Positions 1 through 9,976 of a stretch of 64,000 nt of DNA are shown one piece after another. The translations under genes and the position numbers were made by a program. Under the pieces are notes generated by a model that was given only the letters and a program-made list of their open reading frames with translations, was not told where the DNA came from and searched no databases. Position 1 is the first letter of the stretch. Each line of letters starts with the position of its first letter. Source of the DNA: Streptomyces sp. WP-1 (GTDB lineage Bacteria; Actinomycetota; Actinomycetes; Streptomycetales; Streptomycetaceae); NCBI RefSeq assembly GCF_030450125.1, contig NZ_CP123923.1:4030001-4094000 (forward strand), in the 5' to 3' direction.

Positions 1-710
1 GCGATGTCCAGATGGACGTCACCGATGCCGGCCGCGGCGGCCCGTTCCAGCCGGGCGGCCGGGCCGCCGACGATCACGACCTTGGCGGCACCGGCCAGTT
101 GCGCGAACGCGGCCGCCGCCAGCCCGACCGGGCCGCTGCCCTGCACCACCACGGTCTCGCCCAGCCGCACCGGCCGCCTCTCGTACAGCGCGTGCGCCAC
201 GGTGGGCCCGGCGCAGGCCAGCGACATGGCGGCGAGCGGGTCGGTGCCGTCCGGCACCTTGATCACGGTGGTGCCGGGTCGCAGCACGATGTGGTCGGCC
301 CACGCCCCGGAGAGTTCCGGGCCGTCGGCGAGGGCCCGGTTGACGCCGTAGGTGCGGCGCCGCTCGCACAGGGTCGGCTCGCGGTGCAGTCGGCAGGGCG
401 GGCAGACACCGCAGGCGATGGAGGAGGCCCACATCACCGTGTCGCCGGCCGCGAGCGGCGCCCCGGTGGCGTCCTGGTGGCTGCCCTCGCCCAGCTCCTG
501 TACGACGCCGAGCCCTTCGTGGCCGAGGACGAGCGGGACGGGGATGTCCAGGTGGCCCTCGCGCAGATGCAGGTCCGTGCCGCAGACACCGCCGTACCCG
601 CAGGCGACGACCATGCCGCCGGCGGGCGCCGCGGGCAGCGGGAACTCCCGCAGCCGCAGCGGCTCTCCGAACTCCTCCAGGACGACCGCGCGTCCGGTGC
701 GCCCGCTCAT
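1..710 (-). CDS. Zinc-dependent alcohol dehydrogenase (MDR family), C-terminus cut by window edge
   Basis: The first 236 codons are visible and the rest lies left of the window. The N-terminal GroES-like domain has the catalytic-zinc cysteine in CGYGGVCGTDLH, the GHEGLG motif and a structural-zinc cluster (CGVCPPCRLHREPTLC). The Rossmann fold begins with GSGPVGLAA. These features place it among medium-chain zinc alcohol dehydrogenases that oxidise alcohols or reduce aldehydes with NAD(P). The ATG at 710 overlaps the dioxygenase stop as ATGA, so translation is probably coupled and this is the tenth gene of the leftward operon. The substrate cannot be read from the sequence; in context it may reduce or oxidise a pathway intermediate. 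Confidence 0.9.
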   Translation of the reverse strand, partial: MSGRTGRAVVLEEFGEPLRLREFPLPAAPAGGMVVACGYGGVCGTDLHLREGHLDIPVPLVLGHEGLGVVQELGEGSHQDATGAPLAAGDTVMWASSIACGVCPPCRLHREPTLCERRRTYGVNRALADGPELSGAWADHIVLRPGTTVIKVPDGTDPLAAMSLACAGPTVAHALYERRPVRLGETVVVQGSGPVGLAAAAFAQLAGAAKVVIVGGPAARLERAAAAGIGDVHLDI

Positions 711-1519
711 GCCGTCACCGCGCTCAGGGTCCGGGAGAACGGCGCGGCCAGCGGACGCAGCGGCTCGGTGTCGCGGCACACCACGTAGTCCGGGCGGGGC
801 TCGCTCGTGGGCCGCGGCGGGTTGGCGACGTCGTTGTAGGTGACGATCAGCAGCCGGCGGGCGTACGGCGACATGTTGGGCGACGAACCGTGCACGATCT
901 CCGGGGAGAACAGCACCACGGAGCCGGCCGGGCCCTTGGGGCTGGTCATGCCGTGCCGGTCGACGTGCTCGGCGAGCTGGCGCGGTGACAGCGAGATGTC
1001 GTCGGGGTCGAGGTGCTGCTCGGAGCGGGCGGCGGCGGAGCGGCCCTCGTGGACGAGCCCGTCGCGGTGCGAGCCGGGCAGGAAGATGACCGGGCCGTTG
1101 AACTCGTTCACGTCGTCGAGGAAGACACCGATGTTGACCTGGCGCGGCGCGGGCAGGTTGTCGGCGAGCCGCCAGGCGAGGAAGTCCTGGTGCCAGGCCC
1201 ACTTGTCGCCGCCGAACGCCGGCTTGGCGTTGATCTTGAACTGGTAGACGTAGACGTCCTCGGTGAGCAGCTGCTGCACGGGCTCCAGCAGGCGCGGGTC
1301 GCGGATCAGACCGGCGTACTCGGGCTGCCGCTGGTGCGAGGAGTACACCGCGCGCACCTGGGTGCCGCCGTCCTCGGTCACCACCTGCGGGCCGGGCGTC
1401 CGCGCGTCGCGCTCGAAGGCGGCGCGCAGCGACTCCACCTCCCGCGGTGCGAGGAGCGAGTCGAGCAGCAGGAAACCCTGCTCGTGGTACTGGTCGGCCT
1501 GGTGCTGGGTCAGTCGCAT
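707..1519 (-). CDS. Phytanoyl-CoA dioxygenase (PhyH) family Fe(II)/2-oxoglutarate oxygenase
   Basis: The 270-residue product is the usual length for PhyH-family mononuclear iron oxygenases, which hydroxylate substrates using 2-oxoglutarate and O2. The iron ligands are visible as H110 and D112 in WAWHQDF and H210 in EIVHGSSPN, and R221 or R222 (ARRLLIVTYN) would bind the 2-oxoglutarate carboxylate. FLPGSH is also typical. I chose the ATG at 1519 because AGGAG lies 9 bases upstream; the ATG at 1525 leaves only 3. The gene follows the SDR by 65 bases and overlaps the alcohol dehydrogenase by ATGA. The substrate is unknown; hydroxylation of a carrier- or CoA-bound amino acid derivative would fit the cluster but is inference. 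Confidence 0.9.
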   Translation of the reverse strand: MRLTQHQADQYHEQGFLLLDSLLAPREVESLRAAFERDARTPGPQVVTEDGGTQVRAVYSSHQRQPEYAGLIRDPRLLEPVQQLLTEDVYVYQFKINAKPAFGGDKWAWHQDFLAWRLADNLPAPRQVNIGVFLDDVNEFNGPVIFLPGSHRDGLVHEGRSAAARSEQHLDPDDISLSPRQLAEHVDRHGMTSPKGPAGSVVLFSPEIVHGSSPNMSPYARRLLIVTYNDVANPPRPTSEPRPDYVVCRDTEPLRPLAAPFSRTLSAVTA

Positions 1520-1584
1520 GCGCATCTTCTCCTGAGAGGTGAGGGAAGAGGTGGGGAATCCGTCGGGCCGGGCGGGGCGGGGAG

Positions 1585-2319
1585 TCAGCCCATGAAGTGG
1601 CCGCCGTCGACGATCAGTTGCTGTCCGGTGACGTAGCCGCCGCGCGCGGTCACCAGGAATTCGAGGGCGTCGGCCATGTCCTCGGCCGTGCCGAGCCGGC
1701 CACCGGGGATGGTGTCCAGGACGGCGGCCAGCCGCTCCGGGTCGTCGAGGCGGTAGCGCTCGGTGACCTCTTCGGTGTCGGTGAATCCGGGCAGCAGGGC
1801 GTTCACCCGGATGTGCGGGGCGAGTTCGAGGGCCAGGCACTTGGTGAGCTGGAGCAGGCCCGCCTTGCTCGCGCAGTAGTTGGCGCCGTCGCGGCGGGGC
1901 CGGATCGCCGTGGTGGAGGCGACGTTGACGATGCTGCCGCCGCCCGCCCGGAGCATCGCGGGCGCCAGCGCGCTGGTGAGGTGGAAGGGACCGGAGAGGT
2001 TGGTGGCCAGCACCGTGTCCCAGTCCTCGGCGGTCATCGAGGAGAACGGCCGGTCGCGGTTCACCCCGGCGTTGTTGACCAGCACGGACGGCGGGCCGTA
2101 CGTGCCGGTGATCCGCTCGCAGACGGTCCGGATCTCCGCGGGCCGGGTGAGATCGCAGCGCAGCGGCTCGATCCGGCCCTCGCCCGCCTTGGCGATGTCC
2201 TGTGCGGCGGCTTCGTCGCCACGGTAGAGGGCGATCACCCGGTGGCCGAGGGACGCGAGCCGCAGGCTCAGTGCCCGCCCGATGCCGCGGGTGCCGCCGC
2301 TCACCACGGAGATCGTCAT
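1585..2319 (-). CDS. Short-chain dehydrogenase/reductase (FabG-like SDR)
   Basis: A classical 244-residue SDR. The cofactor motif is SGGTRGIG (residues 7-14), followed by NNAG (82-85) and the catalytic set S135, Y148 and K152 in the YxxxK arrangement (YCASK). The C-terminal VDGG motif is present. The family reduces ketones or oxidises alcohols with NAD(P)H and includes beta-ketoacyl-ACP reductases. An AAGGGG ribosome site precedes the ATG. It sits 31 bases after panD and before the dioxygenase. In this cluster it could reduce a beta-keto thioester or oxidise the hydroxyl group set by the dioxygenase, but nothing in the sequence fixes the substrate. Confidence 0.9.
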   Translation of the reverse strand: MTISVVSGGTRGIGRALSLRLASLGHRVIALYRGDEAAAQDIAKAGEGRIEPLRCDLTRPAEIRTVCERITGTYGPPSVLVNNAGVNRDRPFSSMTAEDWDTVLATNLSGPFHLTSALAPAMLRAGGGSIVNVASTTAIRPRRDGANYCASKAGLLQLTKCLALELAPHIRVNALLPGFTDTEEVTERYRLDDPERLAAVLDTIPGGRLGTAEDMADALEFLVTARGGYVTGQQLIVDGGHFMG

Positions 2320-2350
2320 GGTGTCCCCTTCGCGGGGCGCGCGCCGGCCA

Positions 2351-2767
2351 TCAGCCGGCGACGAGGTCGCCGCGCTTGAGGCCCGAGCCCTCGGGCACCT
2401 CGGCCGGGTCGCCGCCCACGGCGGAGATGGCGTTGTGCTCGTCGACGAAGACGACGTGCGGGACGAGGGCGGCGGCCTCGGCGTCCGTCATGGAGGCGTA
2501 GGCGATGAGGATGACGAGGTCGCCGGGGCTGATGAGGCGGGCGGCGGCGCCGTTGATCCCGATGACGCCGGAGCCGGCGGGGCCCTCGATGACGTACGTG
2601 GACAGCCGGGCGCCGTTGTCGATGTCGACGATGTCGACCTTCTCGCCCGCCATCAGGTCGGCGGCCTTCATGAGGTCGGCGTCGACGGTCACCGAGCCGA
2701 CATAGTGCAGGTCGGCCTGGGTGACGGTGGCGCGGTGGATCTTCGACTTCATCAGGGTGCGGTACAT
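2351..2767 (-). CDS. panD: Aspartate 1-decarboxylase proenzyme, pyruvoyl type
   Basis: PanD converts L-aspartate to beta-alanine and CO2. The 138-residue proenzyme carries the self-processing site GSV at residues 24-26, where cleavage before S25 creates the pyruvoyl group. The opening [20 protein letters not shown] and the NGAA segment are characteristic. In most bacteria panD serves pantothenate synthesis; here it is embedded between a flavin reductase and an SDR in an operon with an adenylation enzyme and a carrier protein. I infer that it supplies beta-alanine to the pathway or boosts CoA and phosphopantetheine. Whether the genome has a second, housekeeping panD cannot be seen here. GGAG precedes the ATG by five bases. 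Confidence 0.95.
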
Positions 2768-2824
2768 GCGGACTCCTCGGATTGGGGGGGGTGGGTGCGG
2801 GGCGGCCGGTGGCGCGGGGCCCGG

Positions 2825-3358
2825 TCAGGCCGGCCAGGTGGCGTAGCGGCGCCTGCCGTACAGCAGCGGCGGCTCTTCGGCGGCCGGGGCGTGGGTCTGG
2901 ATGTCCAGCACCTCGCCGATCACGACGGTGTGGTCGCCGGCCGGGACGAGCCGGGCGACCCGGCACTCGGCGGTGGCGTGCGCGTCCTCGGTCAGCGCCG
3001 GCAGGCCCGTGGCGGGCGCGGGCCGCCACGGGACGGTGCGGAACCGGTCGGCGGCCGGTCCGGCGAACGCCTCGGCGGCGCGCCGCCCGCTGCCGTGCAG
3101 GAAGTTGACGGTGAAGGCACCGCGTGCGGTGAGGACCGGCAGGGTGCTCCCGTTGTTGCCCGCGCAGACCAGCAGTTGCGGCGGGGCGAGGGAGAGCGAG
3201 CACAGGGCGGTGCAGGTGAAGCCGTACGGCACGCCCTGCGCGTCGGCGGTGGTGATGACGGCGACGCCGCTGGGGTGGGAGCCCATCAGGGCCCGGAAGG
3301 CGTCGTGGGTGACGGCGCGGTCGGTGACGGCGCGGTCGTCCTGGACGGGGGTCACCAT
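2825..3358 (-). CDS. Flavin reductase domain protein (HpaC-like)
   Basis: The 177-residue product matches the flavin reductase fold, with the hallmark segment PSGVAVITT near the N-terminus and GFTCTALCSLSLAPP, which forms the FMN/FAD pocket. Members reduce free flavin with NAD(P)H and hand it to a partner monooxygenase. The start at 3358 lies inside the end of the preceding acyl-CoA-dehydrogenase-like gene (7-base overlap; a GTG at 3355 would give a GTGA overlap), so the two are translationally coupled. That pairing suggests the flavoprotein partner is an oxygenase rather than a true dehydrogenase; this is inference from gene order. Confidence 0.9.
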   Translation of the reverse strand: MVTPVQDDRAVTDRAVTHDAFRALMGSHPSGVAVITTADAQGVPYGFTCTALCSLSLAPPQLLVCAGNNGSTLPVLTARGAFTVNFLHGSGRRAAEAFAGPAADRFRTVPWRPAPATGLPALTEDAHATAECRVARLVPAGDHTVVIGEVLDIQTHAPAAEEPPLLYGRRRYATWPA

Positions 3359-4542
3359 GCGAACGCCCGGGCGTCGTAGAGGTTGACGCCGACCGCGGCC
3401 TTGCCCAGGTATTCCAGGCATTCCTGTGGCTTGGCCGGCATCACGTGGGCGAACTGGGCCTCGCGGATCAGCCGTTCCAGCGGATGGCTGCGGCTGACCG
3501 CGGCCGAGCCGCACAGCCTGAGCGCGTCCTGGGCGAGCCGCGGCCCGACCTCGCCGACCACGTACTTGGCGGCGTGCACCATGGCATTGGCCTCCAGGCT
3601 GCCGCGTTCGGCGGTGACGAGGTCACCGGCCTCGTGCACCAGGGCGCGGGCGGCCCGCAGCCGGGCGGACATCCGGCCCAGCTCCTGCTGGACGACGGGT
3701 GAGTCGGCGCGGGCGGGGGAGGCGGTGACATGGTCGACGGTGTGCCGGAAGAGGGCCTCGGCGATCCCGAGGTAGGCGCCCGTGTAGCCGGCGATCATCC
3801 AGTGCGGTTCGCGGACGACCTTGAACAGGGACATGCCCTCGACGCCGAGGTAGAGGCGGGAGCGGGGCACCCGGACCTCGTCCAGCGTCATCGGGGCGGT
3901 GCTGGTGCCGTACATCGCCGACATGTGGTGCGCGGTGCCGAAGCTGACGCCGGGGTCGTCGGCGGCGACGACGAAGTGCGAGGCCTCGCCGGTCTCCTCG
4001 TCGCCGTTGTCGGCGGCCGCCGCGACGACGTAGTAGTCGGCGGCGCCGGCCAGCGACACGAAGTGCTTGGTGCCGTTGAGGATGTAGTGCGTGCCGTCGT
4101 CGGACAGCCGGTAGCGGGTCCGCATCCCGCGGAGTTTGGCGCCGCGTCCGGCCTCGGAGGTGGCGGAGGCGAACAGCTTGCGGCCGCCTACGACCTCCTC
4201 CAGCATCCAGGCGCGGAACGTCTCGGCGGCCGGGGGCAGCCGGGTGCCGGCGGCGTCGGCGAGCGCGCCGATGACGACGTGGTGCATGTTGAGGCCGAGG
4301 GCGGCGGCGCCGTGGTGCGCGCCGAGTTCGGCCAGCACCCGCCAGTAGTCGCCGAAGCCCAGGCCGGCGCCGCCCGCCTCGTGCGGCACGAGCAGGGCGA
4401 GCAGTCCGGACTCGCGCAGGACGCGGTAGGCCTCGTGGCCGTTGTCGTGTCCGGCGTCGGTGGCGGCCGCGAGCGGGGCGATCCGCTCACCGGTGCGTGC
4501 CGCGAGTTTGAGCAGGCTGTCGAGTGGGGTTGGGGGCGTCAT
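3352..4542 (-). CDS. Acyl-CoA-dehydrogenase-fold flavoprotein 1 (possible flavin-dependent monooxygenase)
   Basis: A 396-residue protein with the acyl-CoA dehydrogenase fold: helical N-domain (VPHEAGGAGLG), a mid beta-domain (NGTKHFVSLAG, residues 156-166) and a C-terminal helical bundle ending MPAKPQECLEYLGK. The usual C-terminal catalytic glutamate region is not obvious; E245 in VVREPHWM could be an isovaleryl-type base. Group D two-component monooxygenases (for example N-hydroxylases) share this fold, and the next gene is a flavin reductase overlapping by seven bases. I therefore regard oxygenase and dehydrogenase roles as both open. Start at 4542, with AAGGA six bases upstream. A 15-base repeat array separates it from the second flavoprotein gene. 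Confidence 0.85.
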   Translation of the reverse strand: MTPPTPLDSLLKLAARTGERIAPLAAATDAGHDNGHEAYRVLRESGLLALLVPHEAGGAGLGFGDYWRVLAELGAHHGAAALGLNMHHVVIGALADAAGTRLPPAAETFRAWMLEEVVGGRKLFASATSEAGRGAKLRGMRTRYRLSDDGTHYILNGTKHFVSLAGAADYYVVAAAADNGDEETGEASHFVVAADDPGVSFGTAHHMSAMYGTSTAPMTLDEVRVPRSRLYLGVEGMSLFKVVREPHWMIAGYTGAYLGIAEALFRHTVDHVTASPARADSPVVQQELGRMSARLRAARALVHEAGDLVTAERGSLEANAMVHAAKYVVGEVGPRLAQDALRLCGSAAVSRSHPLERLIREAQFAHVMPAKPQECLEYLGKAAVGVNLYDARAFAW

Positions 4543-4600
4543 CGAAGTCCTTCGGGTCGGTGGTCGGCCTGTCGGGTCTCTGCCGGTCGGTCTCGACGGT

Positions 4601-4777
4601 CGGATCCCGTACGGTCGAACCTGGTCTGGTCGGATCTCGTACGGTCGGATCTGGCCCGGTCGGATCTCGTACGGCCGGTCTCGGCCGATCGGATCTCGGC
4701 CGATCGGATCTCGGCCGATCGGATCTCGCCCGGACGGATCTCGCCCGGACGGATCTCGCCCGGACGGTCTCGGCCGG
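4601..4777. repeat. Degenerate 15-bp tandem repeat array between two operon genes
   Basis: About twelve head-to-tail units of 14-15 bases, consensus CGGATCTCGSCCGRW on the + strand. The best-preserved units are 4690-4704 and 4705-4719 (identical) and 4720-4764 (three identical copies of a second variant). It fills the gap between the stop of flavoprotein 2 and the start of flavoprotein 1 and runs up to that stop. Fainter units continue to about 4553. Because 15 is a multiple of three, each frame reads as a pentapeptide repeat, but no start site with a ribosome-binding signal supports translation. There are no unique spacers, so it is not a CRISPR. Confidence 0.9.
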
Positions 4778-5938
4778 TCAGTTCTCGACCGGCAGACCCA
4801 GTTGCCGTGCGACGCCCACCCGCAGCAGGTCGTTCGGACCGGCGTAGGTGAGGGCCGCCATGGGGCCGGCCAGGTCGGCGGCGAGGTCGAAGCCGGGGAG
4901 GAAGGCACGGACGCCGGACAGCGCGGCGGCGTGCTCGGTCATCCGTACGTAGTCCTCGGAGACGGAGATCTTGGTGAGGGCCGCCTCGGTCGCCAGCTGC
5001 CGCGCGGGGACACCGGCGTCGAGCCGGGCGGCCATCGCGTAGAGCTGGACGCGGGAGCGGTGCAGGGCCATGGCCATGTCGCTGATCCGGGCGGCGACCT
5101 GGTGGCTCGCCCCCATCCGGCGGCCGAAGTGCTCGCGGCCGGCGGCCCAGTCGGCGGTGCGGGCCAGCAGGCGCTGCATCGGGCCGAGGGCGTAGCCGAG
5201 GATGACGGAGCGTTCCCAGGCGGTGGTGGAGGCCATCACCGCGAGGCCGGAGCCCTCCTCGCCGAGCAGCGCGCTGCCCGGCAACCGGACGTCCTCGAAG
5301 AGGAGTTCACCCATCGGCACGGTGGGCAGCGCGGTCTTGGCGAAGGTCTCGCCCCGGCGGATCCCCGGCAGGTCGAGCGGGAAGAGGAACGCGGACAGCG
5401 CGAACGGCGAGCGCCCCTCGGTGGTGCGGGCGAAGACGATCGCCCAGTCGGCCACGGGCGCGGCGGTGATGAACGTCTTGGCGCCGTCCAGCACGAAGCC
5501 GTCGCCCTCGCGCCGGGCCCGGGTGCGCATGGAGAACGGGTCGCTGCCGCCGCCGCGTTCGGTCAGCGCGTGGCACAGCAGCTTCCCGCCCTCCTGGACG
5601 TCGGCGACCGGGCGCCAGGCGTCCGCGCCGAGGGCGTCCCGCAGCGGGAACTGCATCCCGAAGAGCTGCGAGGCCAGCGCGTAGACCAGTCCCGGATCGG
5701 CACCGGCGAGACCGATGCCCTCGATCATGGCGAGCGAGCGGCTGACCGGGCCCGGCGCCGGGGCTTGCGGCCCGGCGAGCCGGAGCACACCGAGGTCGGC
5801 CATGGCCCCCCACTGGGCGGTGAAGTCCTCGTCCGCGATCCGCTCGACGACCGGTACGGCGAGGTCGCGGCAGCTGTCGACGAGCCGTTCGGTCTCCGGC
5901 GCCCCGGTGCGCAGTGCCGCGAGGGCCGCCGCACTCAC
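4778..5938 (-). CDS. Acyl-CoA/acyl-ACP dehydrogenase-like flavoprotein 2
   Basis: A 386-residue acyl-CoA dehydrogenase homologue. It keeps the FAD/substrate signature ALTERGGGSDP (125-135), DGAKTFIT (151-158) and WERS (241-244), where E242 is placed like the catalytic base of isovaleryl-CoA and prolyl-carrier-protein dehydrogenases. It probably oxidises an acyl or aminoacyl thioester to the alpha,beta-unsaturated form. The GTG at 5938 overlaps the carrier-protein stop as GTGA, which decides the start and implies coupled synthesis with its likely acyl donor. The preceding genes encode the carrier protein and adenylating enzyme, an arrangement seen in pyrrole-carboxylate pathways, where an aminoacyl-carrier protein is oxidised. 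Confidence 0.88.
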   Translation of the reverse strand: MSAAALAALRTGAPETERLVDSCRDLAVPVVERIADEDFTAQWGAMADLGVLRLAGPQAPAPGPVSRSLAMIEGIGLAGADPGLVYALASQLFGMQFPLRDALGADAWRPVADVQEGGKLLCHALTERGGGSDPFSMRTRARREGDGFVLDGAKTFITAAPVADWAIVFARTTEGRSPFALSAFLFPLDLPGIRRGETFAKTALPTVPMGELLFEDVRLPGSALLGEEGSGLAVMASTTAWERSVILGYALGPMQRLLARTADWAAGREHFGRRMGASHQVAARISDMAMALHRSRVQLYAMAARLDAGVPARQLATEAALTKISVSEDYVRMTEHAAALSGVRAFLPGFDLAADLAGPMAALTYAGPNDLLRVGVARQLGLPVEN

Positions 5939-6198
5939 TTGCGGCCCTCGCCGGAGAGGTTCTCGATGGCCGCCCAAAGTGCCTTGGGGCTGCGGAAGTT
6001 GGCAGCGACGATCTCGGTGTCGGGCAGCGCGATGCCGGCTTCCTTGTGCAGCGCGGTGACGATCTCCATGATCGCCAGCGAGTCCACGAGCCCCATCTCC
6101 AGCAGCGGGGTGTCGGCGTCGAGGGACCGGGCGTCCTGGCCGCGTCCCCAGGTGATGCGGCTGCCGATGAGGGTGCAGAGTTCTTCGACGCTGTTCAT
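5935..6198 (-). CDS. Acyl/peptidyl carrier protein
   Basis: An 87-residue stand-alone carrier protein. The phosphopantetheine attachment serine is S40 in GLVDSLAIMEIV, with the DSL core typical of acyl and peptidyl carrier proteins. It would hold the substrate as a thioester after loading by the adjacent adenylation enzyme. The ATG overlaps the adenylation gene's stop (ATGA) and its own stop overlaps the next gene (GTGA), so three genes are tightly coupled. It is likely the scaffold on which flavoprotein 2 and perhaps the dioxygenase act. A phosphopantetheinyl transferase is not present in the window. Confidence 0.93.
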   Translation of the reverse strand: MNSVEELCTLIGSRITWGRGQDARSLDADTPLLEMGLVDSLAIMEIVTALHKEAGIALPDTEIVAANFRSPKALWAAIENLSGEGRK

Positions 6199-7766
6199 GC
6201 GGTGATCTCCTCCAGGAGCGCGGGGGCGGCGGTGTGGTCGGCGGCGCCGAGGGCGCGGCGGTCGACCTTGCCGCTGCTGGTGGTGGGCAGAGCGGTGAGC
6301 GGGACGACGCGGTCGGGGAGCATCCGCTTGGGCAGTACGTCGCGCAGGGCGGCCAGGACCTCCCGCTCGGACGCGTCGGTCTGCGCGTAGGCCCAGATCT
6401 GGCCCGCGTGGGGGCCTTCCTTGGCGACGACCGCGGCGGTGGCCACGTGCGGCAGCTCCAGGACGGCGTTCTCGACGTCCATCAGGTCGATGCGGTGGCC
6501 CCGCCGCTTGACCTGGTTGTCGCGCCTTCCACGCAGGAAGACCACGCCGTCGGCGGTGATCCGGCCGATGTCGCCGCTGGGGTAGGCCCGGCGGGCCACG
6601 CCGTCCCGGCAGGTGACGGTGACGGTGGGGTCGTCGGGCGCGCCGCCGCGCAGATACCCCTGGAAGACGACCGGCCCGGCGATGTGGATCTCGCCCTCGC
6701 CGTCGGTGGGCCGGCCCGCCGCATCGAGCACCTCGATGTGGACACCGCCGATGCCGCGCCCGATGGGCAGTTCCCGGTCCGCGGTCCAGTCGGCCGGCAC
6801 CCGGTGGTAGGTGCAGGCGTTCGTCTCGGTGGGCCCGTACAGGTTGTAGAAGGGCACCCCGTCCAGCGCCCGCAGATACCGTTCCAGCAGTTCGGGCGCG
6901 AACGCCTCGCCGCCGAAGGCCGCGATCCGCAGGGCGGGCGGCGGGGCGTCGGCGATGCCACCCTGCTGGAGCATGTTGTGGTACAGGGACGGCACCGCCA
7001 TGAAGGCGGTGATGCGCTGCTCGGTCAGCCAGCCGACGACATCACGCGGGAAGGCCCGCAGCACGTCCGGCATCAGCACCGTGCAGGCCCCCGCGGCGGC
7101 GGCGCTGAACAGGTCGAAGGTCGTCAGGTCGAAGGTGAGGGCGGCCTGCGAGCCGATCCGGTCCTCGGGGGTGAGGCCGAACTCCCCGGCGGCCCACAGC
7201 GCGTAGTGCGCGACGTTCTCGTGCGACAGCAGCACGCCCTTGGGCCAGCCGGTGCTGCCCGAGGTGAAGAGGATGTAGCCGCCGGCGTCGGTGGGCGGGG
7301 GCAGCGGCGCGGGCCGCTCGTGCGCGCCGAGGATCCGCAGCCCGTGCAGCCCGTGCTCGAAGGGGGTCTCGCCGGCCGGCACGCCGTCGCGGGCGCGGGC
7401 GGCGGCGCGGTGGGCCCCGGCCAGGGCGCGGTCGCAGGTCAGCAGCAGGGACAGCCCGGCGTTGCGGATCATGCGGGCGGTACGTTCCGGCGGGTCGGCC
7501 GTGTCGAGGGGCGCGGCGACCGCACCGGCCCGCAGCACCGCGTACAGGGCGATGACCGTGGCCGGAGTCTTGGGCGCGTAGACACCGATCCGGTCGCCCG
7601 GGGCCACACCGGTGGCGAGCAGCCGGTGCGCCAACGCGTCGACGGCGCGGTCGAGCCGGGCGTACGACCACTGCTCGCCGGCCCCCTCCAGGGCGGGGCG
7701 GTCGGGGTGGACGCGCGCGGAGCGGGCCAGCAGGGCGTCGAGGCGTACCGGTGTTCCCGTGGTCAT
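6195..7766 (-). CDS. Free-standing amino acid adenylation enzyme (NRPS A-domain type)
   Basis: A 523-residue ANL-superfamily enzyme that activates a carboxylic acid with ATP and loads it on a carrier protein. Core motifs: A3 LFTSGSTGWPKGV (167-178), A5 NLYGPTETN (308-316), A7 YPSGDIG (395-401), A8 GRRDNQVKRRGHRID and the A10 lysine K500 in TTSSGKVDRRAL. Aligning by eye to GrsA, the binding pocket reads D213, L214, F217, M256, A283, G285, L309, A317, C318, K500. The Asp at the first position points to an alpha-amino acid, with some resemblance to prolyl adenylases; known beta-alanine codes lack it there. Start ATG at 7766 overlaps the hydrolase stop (ATGA). Confidence 0.93.
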   Translation of the reverse strand: MTTGTPVRLDALLARSARVHPDRPALEGAGEQWSYARLDRAVDALAHRLLATGVAPGDRIGVYAPKTPATVIALYAVLRAGAVAAPLDTADPPERTARMIRNAGLSLLLTCDRALAGAHRAAARARDGVPAGETPFEHGLHGLRILGAHERPAPLPPPTDAGGYILFTSGSTGWPKGVLLSHENVAHYALWAAGEFGLTPEDRIGSQAALTFDLTTFDLFSAAAAGACTVLMPDVLRAFPRDVVGWLTEQRITAFMAVPSLYHNMLQQGGIADAPPPALRIAAFGGEAFAPELLERYLRALDGVPFYNLYGPTETNACTYHRVPADWTADRELPIGRGIGGVHIEVLDAAGRPTDGEGEIHIAGPVVFQGYLRGGAPDDPTVTVTCRDGVARRAYPSGDIGRITADGVVFLRGRRDNQVKRRGHRIDLMDVENAVLELPHVATAAVVAKEGPHAGQIWAYAQTDASEREVLAALRDVLPKRMLPDRVVPLTALPTTSSGKVDRRALGAADHTAAPALLEEITA

Positions 7767-8545
7767 CGGGCGGCCTCCGCGGGCCGGGCGGCCTCGGTGT
7801 GCTCGGCGAGGAAGCCGCGGACGGTCTCGACGACCAGGTCCGGGCACACCAGGTGGGGGTAGTGGTCGCAGCCCTCGGGCACCAGCCGCCGGAACGGGCC
7901 GCCGACCGCGCGCTCGACGGCGTCGACCTGGGCCATGGAGCCGTACTCGTCCGCGTCGCCCTGGATCATCAGCACCGGGGCGGTGATGTCGAGGTCGTCC
8001 TCGATGGACCAGTCGCGGAAGGCGGGCGACAGCCAGACGCCGCTCCAGCGGTCGAAGACGCCCTGCGGGTCGTCGTGCACCATGGCCATCTTGCGGGCGA
8101 GCGGACCGGCCTCGTAGGCGGCGCGGGCGTTCTCGATGCCGACGCGGTTCGCGTCCTCGAAGTACATGTGCGGGCCCATCCCGACGACCGCTTCGACGGG
8201 GTGCGCCGAGGCGTGCAGCAGGGAGATGGAGGCGCCGTCGCTGTGGCCGACCAGGACGGGGCGGCGCAGGTCCAGCGCGTCCAGCAGTTCGGGCAGCACG
8301 GTCTGTGCGTGCTCGTGCATATAGCGGGGGGTGCGGGGCAGCGGGTCGGGGCCGCTGCCGCCGCTGCCGTGGCGGGAGTAGACCAGGGCGCGGCGCCCGG
8401 TGGCCTCGGCCAGCAGGGCGGGGAAGCGGCCCCAGGCCGCGAGGCAGCCGAGTCCGCCGTGCAGGAAGACCAGGGGCGCGAGGTCCGGGTCGCCGTCGAT
8501 GAGGACGTGTTCGAGCGGACCATTGCTCGTATCGATTACAGGCAC
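7763..8545 (-). CDS. Alpha/beta hydrolase
   Basis: A 260-residue alpha/beta-hydrolase. HGG (29-31) forms the oxyanion region, GHSDG holds the nucleophile S102, and D198 (GDADE) and H228 (CDHYPH) complete the triad. No signal peptide is visible, so it is cytoplasmic. It is the first gene of the leftward operon: the GTG at 8545 has AAGGA eight bases upstream, and its stop overlaps the adenylation gene (ATGA). Possible roles are release of the product from the carrier protein, editing of misloaded thioesters, or hydrolysis of a late intermediate; it lacks the context that would choose between these. Confidence 0.9.
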   Translation of the reverse strand: MPVIDTSNGPLEHVLIDGDPDLAPLVFLHGGLGCLAAWGRFPALLAEATGRRALVYSRHGSGGSGPDPLPRTPRYMHEHAQTVLPELLDALDLRRPVLVGHSDGASISLLHASAHPVEAVVGMGPHMYFEDANRVGIENARAAYEAGPLARKMAMVHDDPQGVFDRWSGVWLSPAFRDWSIEDDLDITAPVLMIQGDADEYGSMAQVDAVERAVGGPFRRLVPEGCDHYPHLVCPDLVVETVRGFLAEHTEAARPAEAAR

Positions 8546-9121
8546 AGCGAAAATCCTTCTCAGTGATCTACGGCAGCAGAACGAGAATTCCCGTAGAGCC
8601 CAGGGGGGCGGCGCATCACGAAGACCTGCGACAGGGCAGGGAAAATTCGATCGGCGCACCGGAAAACTCGGCAGCGGAGACAATGAAGGTGATAACTGCC
8701 TGAACGGCAGTGAAAAATTGGCACGGCCCGGCACAGCGCATGACGGCCGGCCGACGCATCGATTGACGCCGGAATGCCCATGCGGACGTTCCACGCCACC
8801 GATGGGCCGCGCGGCCGAGAACTGTTGCTGGAAAGGGCCTCAAGGGCCGCAAAGAAGCGTATTTCGGGCCACGGACACCATTCGGACAGTCCGGTCGGCC
8901 ACGCGTCGCTTTACCTTCTCTTTGACGTTCCTGTGCCAGGCCGGTCCACGGCGCGCACGAACGCTCCTCGCATATCAACCCCCGTTGAAAGTTCGACTAC
9001 ACACCGGCGTCCGGGCGCCCGCACTTATCCGGCACCCCGCCCGCTCGGCGACACCCAGAAGACTAGACACTGCACCCCGGGTGGAGAAATAACATTGATG
9101 CACCACCTATACACTCAAGGA
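8546..9121. promoter_or_regulatory. Divergent intergenic region between the operon and its LysR regulator
   Basis: These 576 bases hold no credible gene and are less G+C-rich than their surroundings, as expected for a regulatory region. They must contain the promoter of the ten-gene leftward operon and of the rightward LysR gene. A TATACA at 9108-9113 lies close to the LysR start and could be a -10 element giving a very short leader, but no good -35 partner is seen. I could not identify a convincing LysR T-N11-A site by eye. Confidence 0.6.
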
Positions 9122-9976
9122 ATGAACATCGATCTGCGCCACCTGCGATGCTTTCTGACCGTGGCGGAGGAAGGGGGATTCACGGCTGCCGGTCGCCGTC
9201 TGCATCTCACCCAGCCGACCCTGACCCGCAACATCAGGGCGCTGGAGCAATCCCTGGGTGTGAAGCTCTTCGAGCGCAGCACACGCAGAACGGAGCTGAC
9301 CGAGAAAGGCAAGGCCCTCCAGGAATCCCTCGCCCCCCTGCTGCGCCAGCTCGATTCGACACTGCGGGATTTACAGCAGGGGGAGAAACTGCGCATAGGG
9401 TTCAGCTGGGGACTTCCCGAGGGTTTGTCCCGGCTCGCAGCCCGGTTCGGCGAGGAGACCGGGGTCGGCGTCGAATTCATCCGCTGCGACACCCCCCAGG
9501 CCGGACTCGACACCGGCGAGGCCGACCTCGGCCTGCTGCGCAGCGCGTCGGTACCGAAGGGACTGCGCGGCCTGCGCCTGTACGAGGAGGAGCGCATCGC
9601 CGCCGTCCCCGCGAGCTGGCGGCTGGCCGAACGCACCGAGCTGGACTGGGCGGAACTCACCGACTTCCCGCTGATCATCAACACCGTCAGCGGCACCACC
9701 TTCCCCGACATGTGGCCCGCCGGACGCCGGCCGACGGTCGGCGCCGAGTGCCGCAATTTCGACGAGTGGCTGGAGCAGGTGGCCGTCGGCCTCGGCGTGG
9801 GCACCGCACCGGTCTCCGCCGCCCGCCGCTACACCCACCCCGCCGTCCGCCTCGTCCCGCTGACGGGCGCCCCCGCCGTGCCCGCCTACCTCGCCCACCC
9901 GTCCCACGGCGCCCACCCCCAGGCCGCACGCTTCGCCGACCAGGCCTGGCGGGCGGCCGACGAGTTGCAGGCGTAG
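9122..9976 (+). CDS. LysR family transcriptional regulator
   Basis: A 284-residue LysR-type regulator. Residues 1-60 form the winged HTH (FLTVAEEGGFTAAGRRLHLTQPT split into its helices, then ALEQSLGVKLFER), followed by a linker helix and a periplasmic-binding-protein-like effector domain. It is divergent from the biosynthetic operon, the normal arrangement for a LysR protein that controls its neighbours and represses itself, so it is probably the pathway-specific activator responding to a pathway metabolite. The family start pattern MNIDLRHLRCF favours 9122, though AGGA directly abuts that ATG; an in-frame ATG at 9098 with GGAGA upstream is the alternative. Confidence 0.92.
   Translation: MNIDLRHLRCFLTVAEEGGFTAAGRRLHLTQPTLTRNIRALEQSLGVKLFERSTRRTELTEKGKALQESLAPLLRQLDSTLRDLQQGEKLRIGFSWGLPEGLSRLAARFGEETGVGVEFIRCDTPQAGLDTGEADLGLLRSASVPKGLRGLRLYEEERIAAVPASWRLAERTELDWAELTDFPLIINTVSGTTFPDMWPAGRRPTVGAECRNFDEWLEQVAVGLGVGTAPVSAARRYTHPAVRLVPLTGAPAVPAYLAHPSHGAHPQAARFADQAWRAADELQA

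Follow-up and report, generated by a model that had tools for sequence, protein, structure and literature searches.

A ten-gene Streptomyces operon that appears to join leucine-to-methylproline genes to an N-hydroxypyrrole cassette

Two described systems lie closest to the subject of this report, a leftward operon of ten genes at the left edge of a 64,000-nucleotide stretch of Streptomyces sp. WP-1 (hereafter the window; bases 4030001–4094000 of a 7.62-Mb single-contig genome). In the first, chalkophomycin biosynthesis, ChmJ attaches proline to ChmI, ChmG N-oxygenates it, ChmH desaturates it and ChmF hydrolyses the product to give N-hydroxypyrrole-2-carboxylate, with N-oxygenation preceding desaturation (PMC10849742, which is cited here from excerpts, as are PMC11085572, PMC10817943 and PMC7397340). 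The catalytic glutamate is retained in ChmH and replaced by methionine in ChmG, whose fold has been compared with that of KijD3; the hormaomycin genes hrmKLMN are described as a close relative of chmFGHIJ, and N-hydroxypyrrole clusters are sorted into four classes from 97 organisms, some with non-assembly-line genes (PMC10849742). Published lengths are 517 amino acids (aa) for ChmJ and 395 aa for ChmG (PMC11085572). Origins of N-hydroxypyrroles from leucine and from proline had both been proposed before the proline route was worked out, and the excerpted text of that study contains no enzymatic route from leucine (PMC10849742). In the second system, which makes the methylproline of griselimycin, GriE binds iron through His110, Asp112 and His210 and holds the substrate carboxylate by a salt bridge from Arg242, GriF is a zinc-dependent dehydrogenase, and deletion of griH was without effect, which the authors ascribed to ProC (PMC5676206). 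The griE-griF pair has also served as bait for methylproline clusters (PMC10817943).

The WP-1 operon resembles both systems, and we think it quite probable, by analogy with them, that its product, formed from L-leucine, is 1-hydroxy-4-methylpyrrole-2-carboxylic acid or a simple derivative of it (ester or amide). A first-pass annotation, made by a model from the sequence alone, had described ten leftward genes of this composition, a divergent LysR gene and four 4-bp junctions, all of which are confirmed by the reading frames and domain matches; we also agree with its view of a single operon yielding a dedicated biosynthetic product by way of a free-standing adenylation enzyme and carrier protein. 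It could not match the set to a known pathway, but the genes do match chmFGHIJ plus griEF. Leftward from position 8545, the genes (all on the minus strand, in window positions) are:

7763–8545, minus, start GTG at 8545: alpha/beta hydrolase, ChmF-like, proposed releasing thioesterase (domain match; conserved in the operon)
6195–7766, minus: free-standing adenylation enzyme, ChmJ-like (pocket code DLFMAFLAC)
5935–6198, minus: free-standing carrier protein, ChmI-like (PF00550; DSL attachment motif)
4778–5938, minus: ACAD1, a ChmH/RedW-like carrier-protein dehydrogenase of the acyl-CoA dehydrogenase (ACAD) fold (catalytic Glu242 present)
3352–4542, minus: ACAD2, a flavoprotein of the ACAD fold, ChmG-like and proposed to be the N-oxygenase (residue 251 of a 398-aa reading is Met in place of the catalytic Glu)
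2825–3358, minus: flavin reductase, proposed partner of the N-oxygenase (PF01613, 133 bits)
2351–2767, minus: PanD aspartate 1-decarboxylase, of which the genome encodes two (TIGR00223, 163.8 bits; cut-off 106)
1585–2319, minus: FabG-like short-chain dehydrogenase/reductase (SDR), proposed methyl-pyrroline-carboxylate reductase, perhaps dispensable (profile matches; beside PhyH-ADH also in L144, L145 and L146)
707–1525, minus: PhyH-family Fe(II)/2-oxoglutarate (2OG) oxygenase, nearest among solved structures to the leucine 5-hydroxylase GriE (PF05721; 5nch, 333 bits)
1–710, minus, running past the window edge to genome 4029604, 396 bp further left (368 aa in total): zinc-dependent alcohol dehydrogenase (ADH), GriF-like by family and position (PF08240 and PF00107, full frame)

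Judged by sequence features, the hydrolase, adenylation enzyme, carrier protein, ACAD1 and ACAD2 correspond one-to-one to chmFGHIJ as published: both sets comprise a hydrolase, a Met-bearing ACAD N-oxygenase, a Glu-bearing ACAD dehydrogenase, a carrier protein and a proline-type free-standing adenylation enzyme. ACAD1 aligns to the prolyl-acyl carrier protein dehydrogenase 4irn and has the catalytic glutamate in all 15 alignment rows. In ACAD2 that position is methionine in 19 of 20 rows, the window included (the remaining one, L111, has threonine), and the best 120 of 178 homologs have Met in 115, Thr in three and Leu in two. This residue and the relatives of ACAD2 make N-oxygenase a likelier assignment than desaturase, and the order of desaturation followed by oxygenation given in the first-pass annotation is probably wrong, since the characterised Chm system N-oxygenates first (PMC10849742, in excerpt). 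Nitro, azirine and isonitrile products were considered and dropped, as the relatives of ACAD2 point to a proline N-oxygenase. Among Streptomyces anulatus proteins, P0075 (517 aa, the published length of ChmJ) is 51% identical to the window adenylation enzyme and P0173 (395 aa, the published length of ChmG) 58% identical to ACAD2; by species name and length alone, we take these to be ChmJ and ChmG. The hydrolase, a candidate counterpart of ChmF, is present and conserved in the operon, and in Crossiella P0072 it forms a single protein with the adenylation enzyme.

All five cassette genes also occur together, in varied company, in L105, L106, L109, L117 and the Pseudomonas loci L006 and L152, while in L110 four of the five are present, and the Pfam alpha/beta hydrolase of that locus differs in sequence and does not match the one in the window. 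The operon differs from chm in that it has no nonribosomal peptide synthetase (NRPS), polyketide synthase or ChmK-like reloading enzyme and in that its adenylation pocket is changed at two positions; it adds a flavin reductase of its own, leucine-to-methylproline genes and PanD. In L107 (on the same contig as L005), L108 and L116, a ChmG-like ACAD2 adjoins an adenylation enzyme and an SDR, together with thioesterases, a further reductase and ketosynthase-type genes in L116 and with a ketosynthase and a class-V aminotransferase in L107, and these loci have no carrier protein homologs and no separate ACAD1; possibly an N-oxygenated amino acid serves there as a polyketide starter.

The leucine-to-methylproline genes share with the griE-griF pair of griselimycin and mycoplanecin a GriE-like 2OG oxygenase next to a zinc dehydrogenase. 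Among solved structures, PhyH matches GriE best (5nch; the next distinct sequence scores 209.9 bits), and the His-Asp-His ligands and Arg242 of GriE are all aligned in PhyH (judged by eye, allowing for a shift of 3 in the alignment as printed). The ADH gene adjoins that of PhyH with a 4-bp overlap; its likeness to GriF is one of family and position. Unlike griE-griF, the operon module would feed a free-standing carrier-protein cassette and not an NRPS, and in place of GriH, which is F420-dependent by annotation, it has an SDR. Griselimycin biosynthesis can do without its final reductase, which would fit the absence of the SDR in one related locus (L115) and its splitting in another (L101).

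PhyH homologs at E<=1e-60 were found in 19 of 295 genomes of the genus. In the neighbourhoods of 15 of these 19, an ADH homolog adjoins PhyH in 12 (six operons and L144–L149), whereas in L141–L143 it does not, except for a 159-bp match at 51% in L142. The SDR, PhyH and ADH stand together in L144–L146 beside adenylation-domain (NRPS-like) genes, the matches being at 32% in a scan for adenylation domains. Conversely, ACAD2 is present in 14 of the 295 genomes, six of which also have PhyH, in each case inside the operon.

The free-standing adenylation enzyme with its proline-type pocket and the free-standing carrier protein are both present in the window. At the nine pocket positions (235, 236, 239, 278, 299, 301, 322, 330 and 331 in what we take to be GrsA numbering) the window enzyme reads DLFMAFLAC and S. 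anulatus P0075 reads DLFYIFLVC, a difference at three of nine positions, two of which make up an M/A switch. The pocket is DLF[M/V/I]AFLAC in all 13 loci with PhyH-ADH (L223 and L224 being identical), and Tyr at 278 with Val at 330 in all 13 rows without PhyH-ADH (12 distinct loci, with L005 and L107 on one contig, judged by its length). The latter include L103 and L217, which occupy the same LysR/XRE/MFS site as the window operon and lack PanD-SDR-PhyH-ADH. Loci L217–L220 were read after the rule had been formed, and all fit it. Among the best 120 of 563 adenylation homologs, 41 have the M/V/I-A combination (P0001–P0041; P0010 differs further in having V instead of A at 299), 78 have Tyr-Val and one has Tyr-Ala (P0068). 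For nine of the 41, the contig has exactly the length of one that carries a PhyH homolog (compared by eye, with the best 120 of 281 such homologs), against none of the next 13 (P0042–P0054). A smaller side chain in place of Tyr, with Ala in place of Val, would be what space for a ring methyl requires. The two-residue rule (Tyr/Val or Met,Val,Ile/Ala) divides the family by predicted substrate, proline or methylproline.

From the gene content, gene order, catalytic-residue pattern and co-occurrence of the pocket switch with PhyH-ADH, we infer the following chemistry. Following GriE and GriF, PhyH would hydroxylate L-leucine at C5 and the ADH would oxidise 5-hydroxyleucine to a semialdehyde that closes to methyl-pyrroline-carboxylate, which the SDR or cellular ProC would then reduce to 4-methylproline. 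The adenylation enzyme, with its altered pocket, would load this amino acid onto the carrier protein (as do ChmJ and ChmI), ACAD2 with the flavin reductase would N-hydroxylate the ring (as does ChmG), ACAD1 would desaturate it to the aromatic N-hydroxypyrrole (as does ChmH), and the hydrolase would release the product (as does ChmF), for export by a transporter encoded outside the window. The first-pass annotation had likewise placed an amino acid on the carrier protein, but had PhyH and ADH act afterwards; by the griselimycin precedent, both most likely come before loading and work on free leucine.

Several observations weigh against this scheme. The likeness to chm draws on the published description and the S. 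anulatus proteins, and on no chm locus itself; a search of 392 genus genomes for a chm-like locus gave a match in 19, and none of the four newly found loci (G837, G853, G861 and G908; three full operons and one short) is a chm cluster for direct comparison. The L111/G081 protein is 74% identical to P0173 but carries Thr in place of the Met, and the 15 kb read around its gene (4237–5343) contain nothing else of the cassette, which weakens the identification of P0173 as ChmG. The M/V/I-A pocket forms one clade (42 of 121 sequences including the window; node support 0.74), so that its co-occurrence with PhyH-ADH may reflect a single evolutionary event, and the pocket numbering is taken over from GrsA rather than derived from a structure. 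No ester- or amide-conjugating enzyme was recognised in the operon, and the scheme assigns no role to PanD.

The conserved unit extends past the ten genes on both sides, to three further genes:

9122–9976, plus: divergent LysR regulator, conserved with the operon (ATG taken as 9122)
genome 4028624–4029463, plus, outside the window: XRE regulator, convergent to the ADH gene
genome 4027297–4028565, minus, outside the window: major facilitator superfamily (MFS) transporter, beyond the XRE gene

LysR, XRE and MFS are present in all 11 related loci compared. Seven genes beyond LysR and MFS served for comparison: in L219 three of those to the right have a match, and the other ten loci have none (the 20-kb stretches used did not reach as far as one of the seven, pknB). 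We therefore take the unit to run from LysR to MFS and reject the view of MFS and XRE as unrelated neighbours. Genes resembling, by sequence, ppiA, sortase and pknB genes lie to the left of MFS.

Fifteen loci with this LysR-XRE-MFS frame were read, the window included, and 12 have all ten genes in an identical order (window, L099, L100, L101, L102, L104, L218, L219, L220, L222, L223 and L224), more than chance would produce. LysR and PanD, which the first-pass annotation had included in the set, are conserved with the operon. The SDR of L101 is spread over three frames, L115 has no SDR match, and L103 and L217 keep the genes from hydrolase through flavin reductase and lack the four that follow. 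The 15 include three plasmid-borne copies, one on NZ_CP109577.1 (L222) and two on NZ_CP108874.1 (L223 and L224), both of them linear Streptomyces plasmids. The latter two, in opposite orientation on the one plasmid and beside transposase and integrase genes, are identical over 12.47 kb, and L222 is 99.7% identical to them. The nearest named homolog of the adenylation enzyme is from Streptomyces lavendulae (96%). A scan of genome contigs with unspecific patterns gave at least 80 loci; among the matches listed, L005 and L006 were the ones above 50% identity.

The presence of PanD admits two candidate readings, building block and, with less probability, protection, between which the present data do not decide. 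The first-pass annotation had beta-alanine made on the spot, which is plausible in that the operon PanD passes its curated family cut-off and has relatives near NRPS-like genes, although no user of beta-alanine was identified. As a tentative extension of the leucine scheme, and not a replacement of it, beta-alanine could be a building block, with the hydrolase acting as an acyltransferase (or an unlinked coupling enzyme taking that part) to give an N-hydroxymethylpyrrole amide of beta-alanine. PanD is missing together with SDR-PhyH-ADH in L103 and L217, and PanDs of the same branch stand by adenylation-domain genes in L145, L191, L192 and L193 (the L191 and L192 stretches share 94% identity), a setting in which PanD would ordinarily supply beta-alanine; those of L189 and L190 have no adenylation-domain matches. 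Set against this, the operon offers no recognisable amide-forming enzyme, the characterised ChmF is a hydrolase (PMC10849742, in excerpt), and each of the eight operon-free genomes checked has one PanD anyway. Those with an operon PanD have one to four (n=7). We rejected a purely secondary-metabolism branch of PanD, as G219 and G634 carry a same-branch PanD outside the operon, in a neighbourhood common to both.

It is also conceivable, although unlikely, that PanD provides self-protection, the product disturbing pantothenate/CoA synthesis and an extra PanD (PanB in Pseudomonas) restoring the pool or replacing a sensitive enzyme. Two Pseudomonas loci, in 2 of 149 genomes searched, have the cassette, and in both the hydrolase is followed immediately by a PanB paralogue (L006, 16203–17027; L152, 6365–7189), about 60% identical to another PanB in the same genomes. 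In L152, matches were found for the hydrolase, the carrier protein and PanB, and none for PhyH, ADH, SDR, PanD or the flavin reductase; no PanB match was found in the Streptomyces loci checked. The operon copy is moreover the only PanD found in the one-contig genome G064. In G175 (which holds L103), no PanD was detected at E<=0.001, in an assembly listed as 100% complete. Protection fits poorly with L103 and L217 (at the same site), L105 and L106, which have the cassette with neither PanD nor PanB in the stretch read, with the same-branch PanDs in loci lacking the cassette, and with the difficulty that PanD and PanB could hardly both be the direct target. That the N-hydroxypyrrole-2-carboxylates of such cassettes are pantothenate/CoA antimetabolites, with the spare PanD (Streptomyces) or PanB (Pseudomonas) as operon immunity and the operon copy now the sole PanD of G064, strikes us as distinctly unlikely.

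We consider it improbable that the operon makes plain N-hydroxypyrrole-2-carboxylate from proline while PhyH, ADH and SDR serve something else. The core cassette does use L-proline in chm (PMC10849742, in excerpt) and occurs without PhyH-ADH in L103, L105, L106 and L217, but the two pocket changes were found only with PhyH-ADH among the loci read, and the PhyH residues follow GriE. An ordinary pyrrole pathway of RedW/PltE type, lacking N-oxygenation, is scarcely credible: RedW is the best NCBIfam model for ACAD1, but the score on that model (NF045652; 212.4 bits) is far below the cut-off of 650, and a plain pyrrole would need neither a flavin reductase nor another ACAD-fold protein in which Met replaces Glu.

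Glycerinopyrin, a glycerol ester from Streptomyces violaceus, shares an N-hydroxypyrrole with the product predicted from leucine, and the predicted C6 skeleton would fit a leucine origin. It is listed among the N-hydroxypyrroles, with its biogenesis paper cited for an origin from leucine (PMC10849742, in excerpt). A literature search found no gene cluster for glycerinopyrin or surugapyrrole. An 87% homolog of ACAD2 is named S. coelicoflavus, and strain USF-6280, the strain number of the surugapyrrole paper, is given as S. coelicoflavus in a reference title (PMC7397340); this coincidence is suggestive only. The cassette and the griEF module are each known, and the literature searched showed no case of the two combined with such a pocket change, although the operon may already be among the four cluster classes of PMC10849742 (in excerpt). 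N-hydroxypyrroles are rare, and if our scheme is true, the operon, which appears to join a leucine-to-methylproline module to a proline-type N-hydroxypyrrole route with a matching change of the adenylation pocket, offers candidate genes for the leucine-derived ones of glycerinopyrin type. The leucine-to-N-hydroxypyrrole question thus becomes testable with a handful of proteins.

The operon is less compact than the first-pass annotation, in which the genes overlap or nearly touch, had suggested. Overlaps of 4 bp are present at four junctions (7763–7766, 6195–6198, 5935–5938 and 707–710, the last from the 368-aa ADH frame), and the ACAD2 and flavin reductase genes overlap as well, but gaps of 235 bp (ACAD1-ACAD2), 57 bp (flavin reductase-PanD), 31 bp (PanD-SDR) and about 60 bp (SDR-PhyH) separate the others. 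A scan of 8400–9200 for sigma-70-type promoters and terminators found none. The largest gap is occupied by one further feature:

4564–4792, no strand: 15-bp tandem repeat array of 15.5 copies between ACAD2 and ACAD1, extending into the ACAD1 end

A search across the genome found no match to this array elsewhere. It fills the 235-bp gap, and in other loci with both genes the gap is 7–90 bp.

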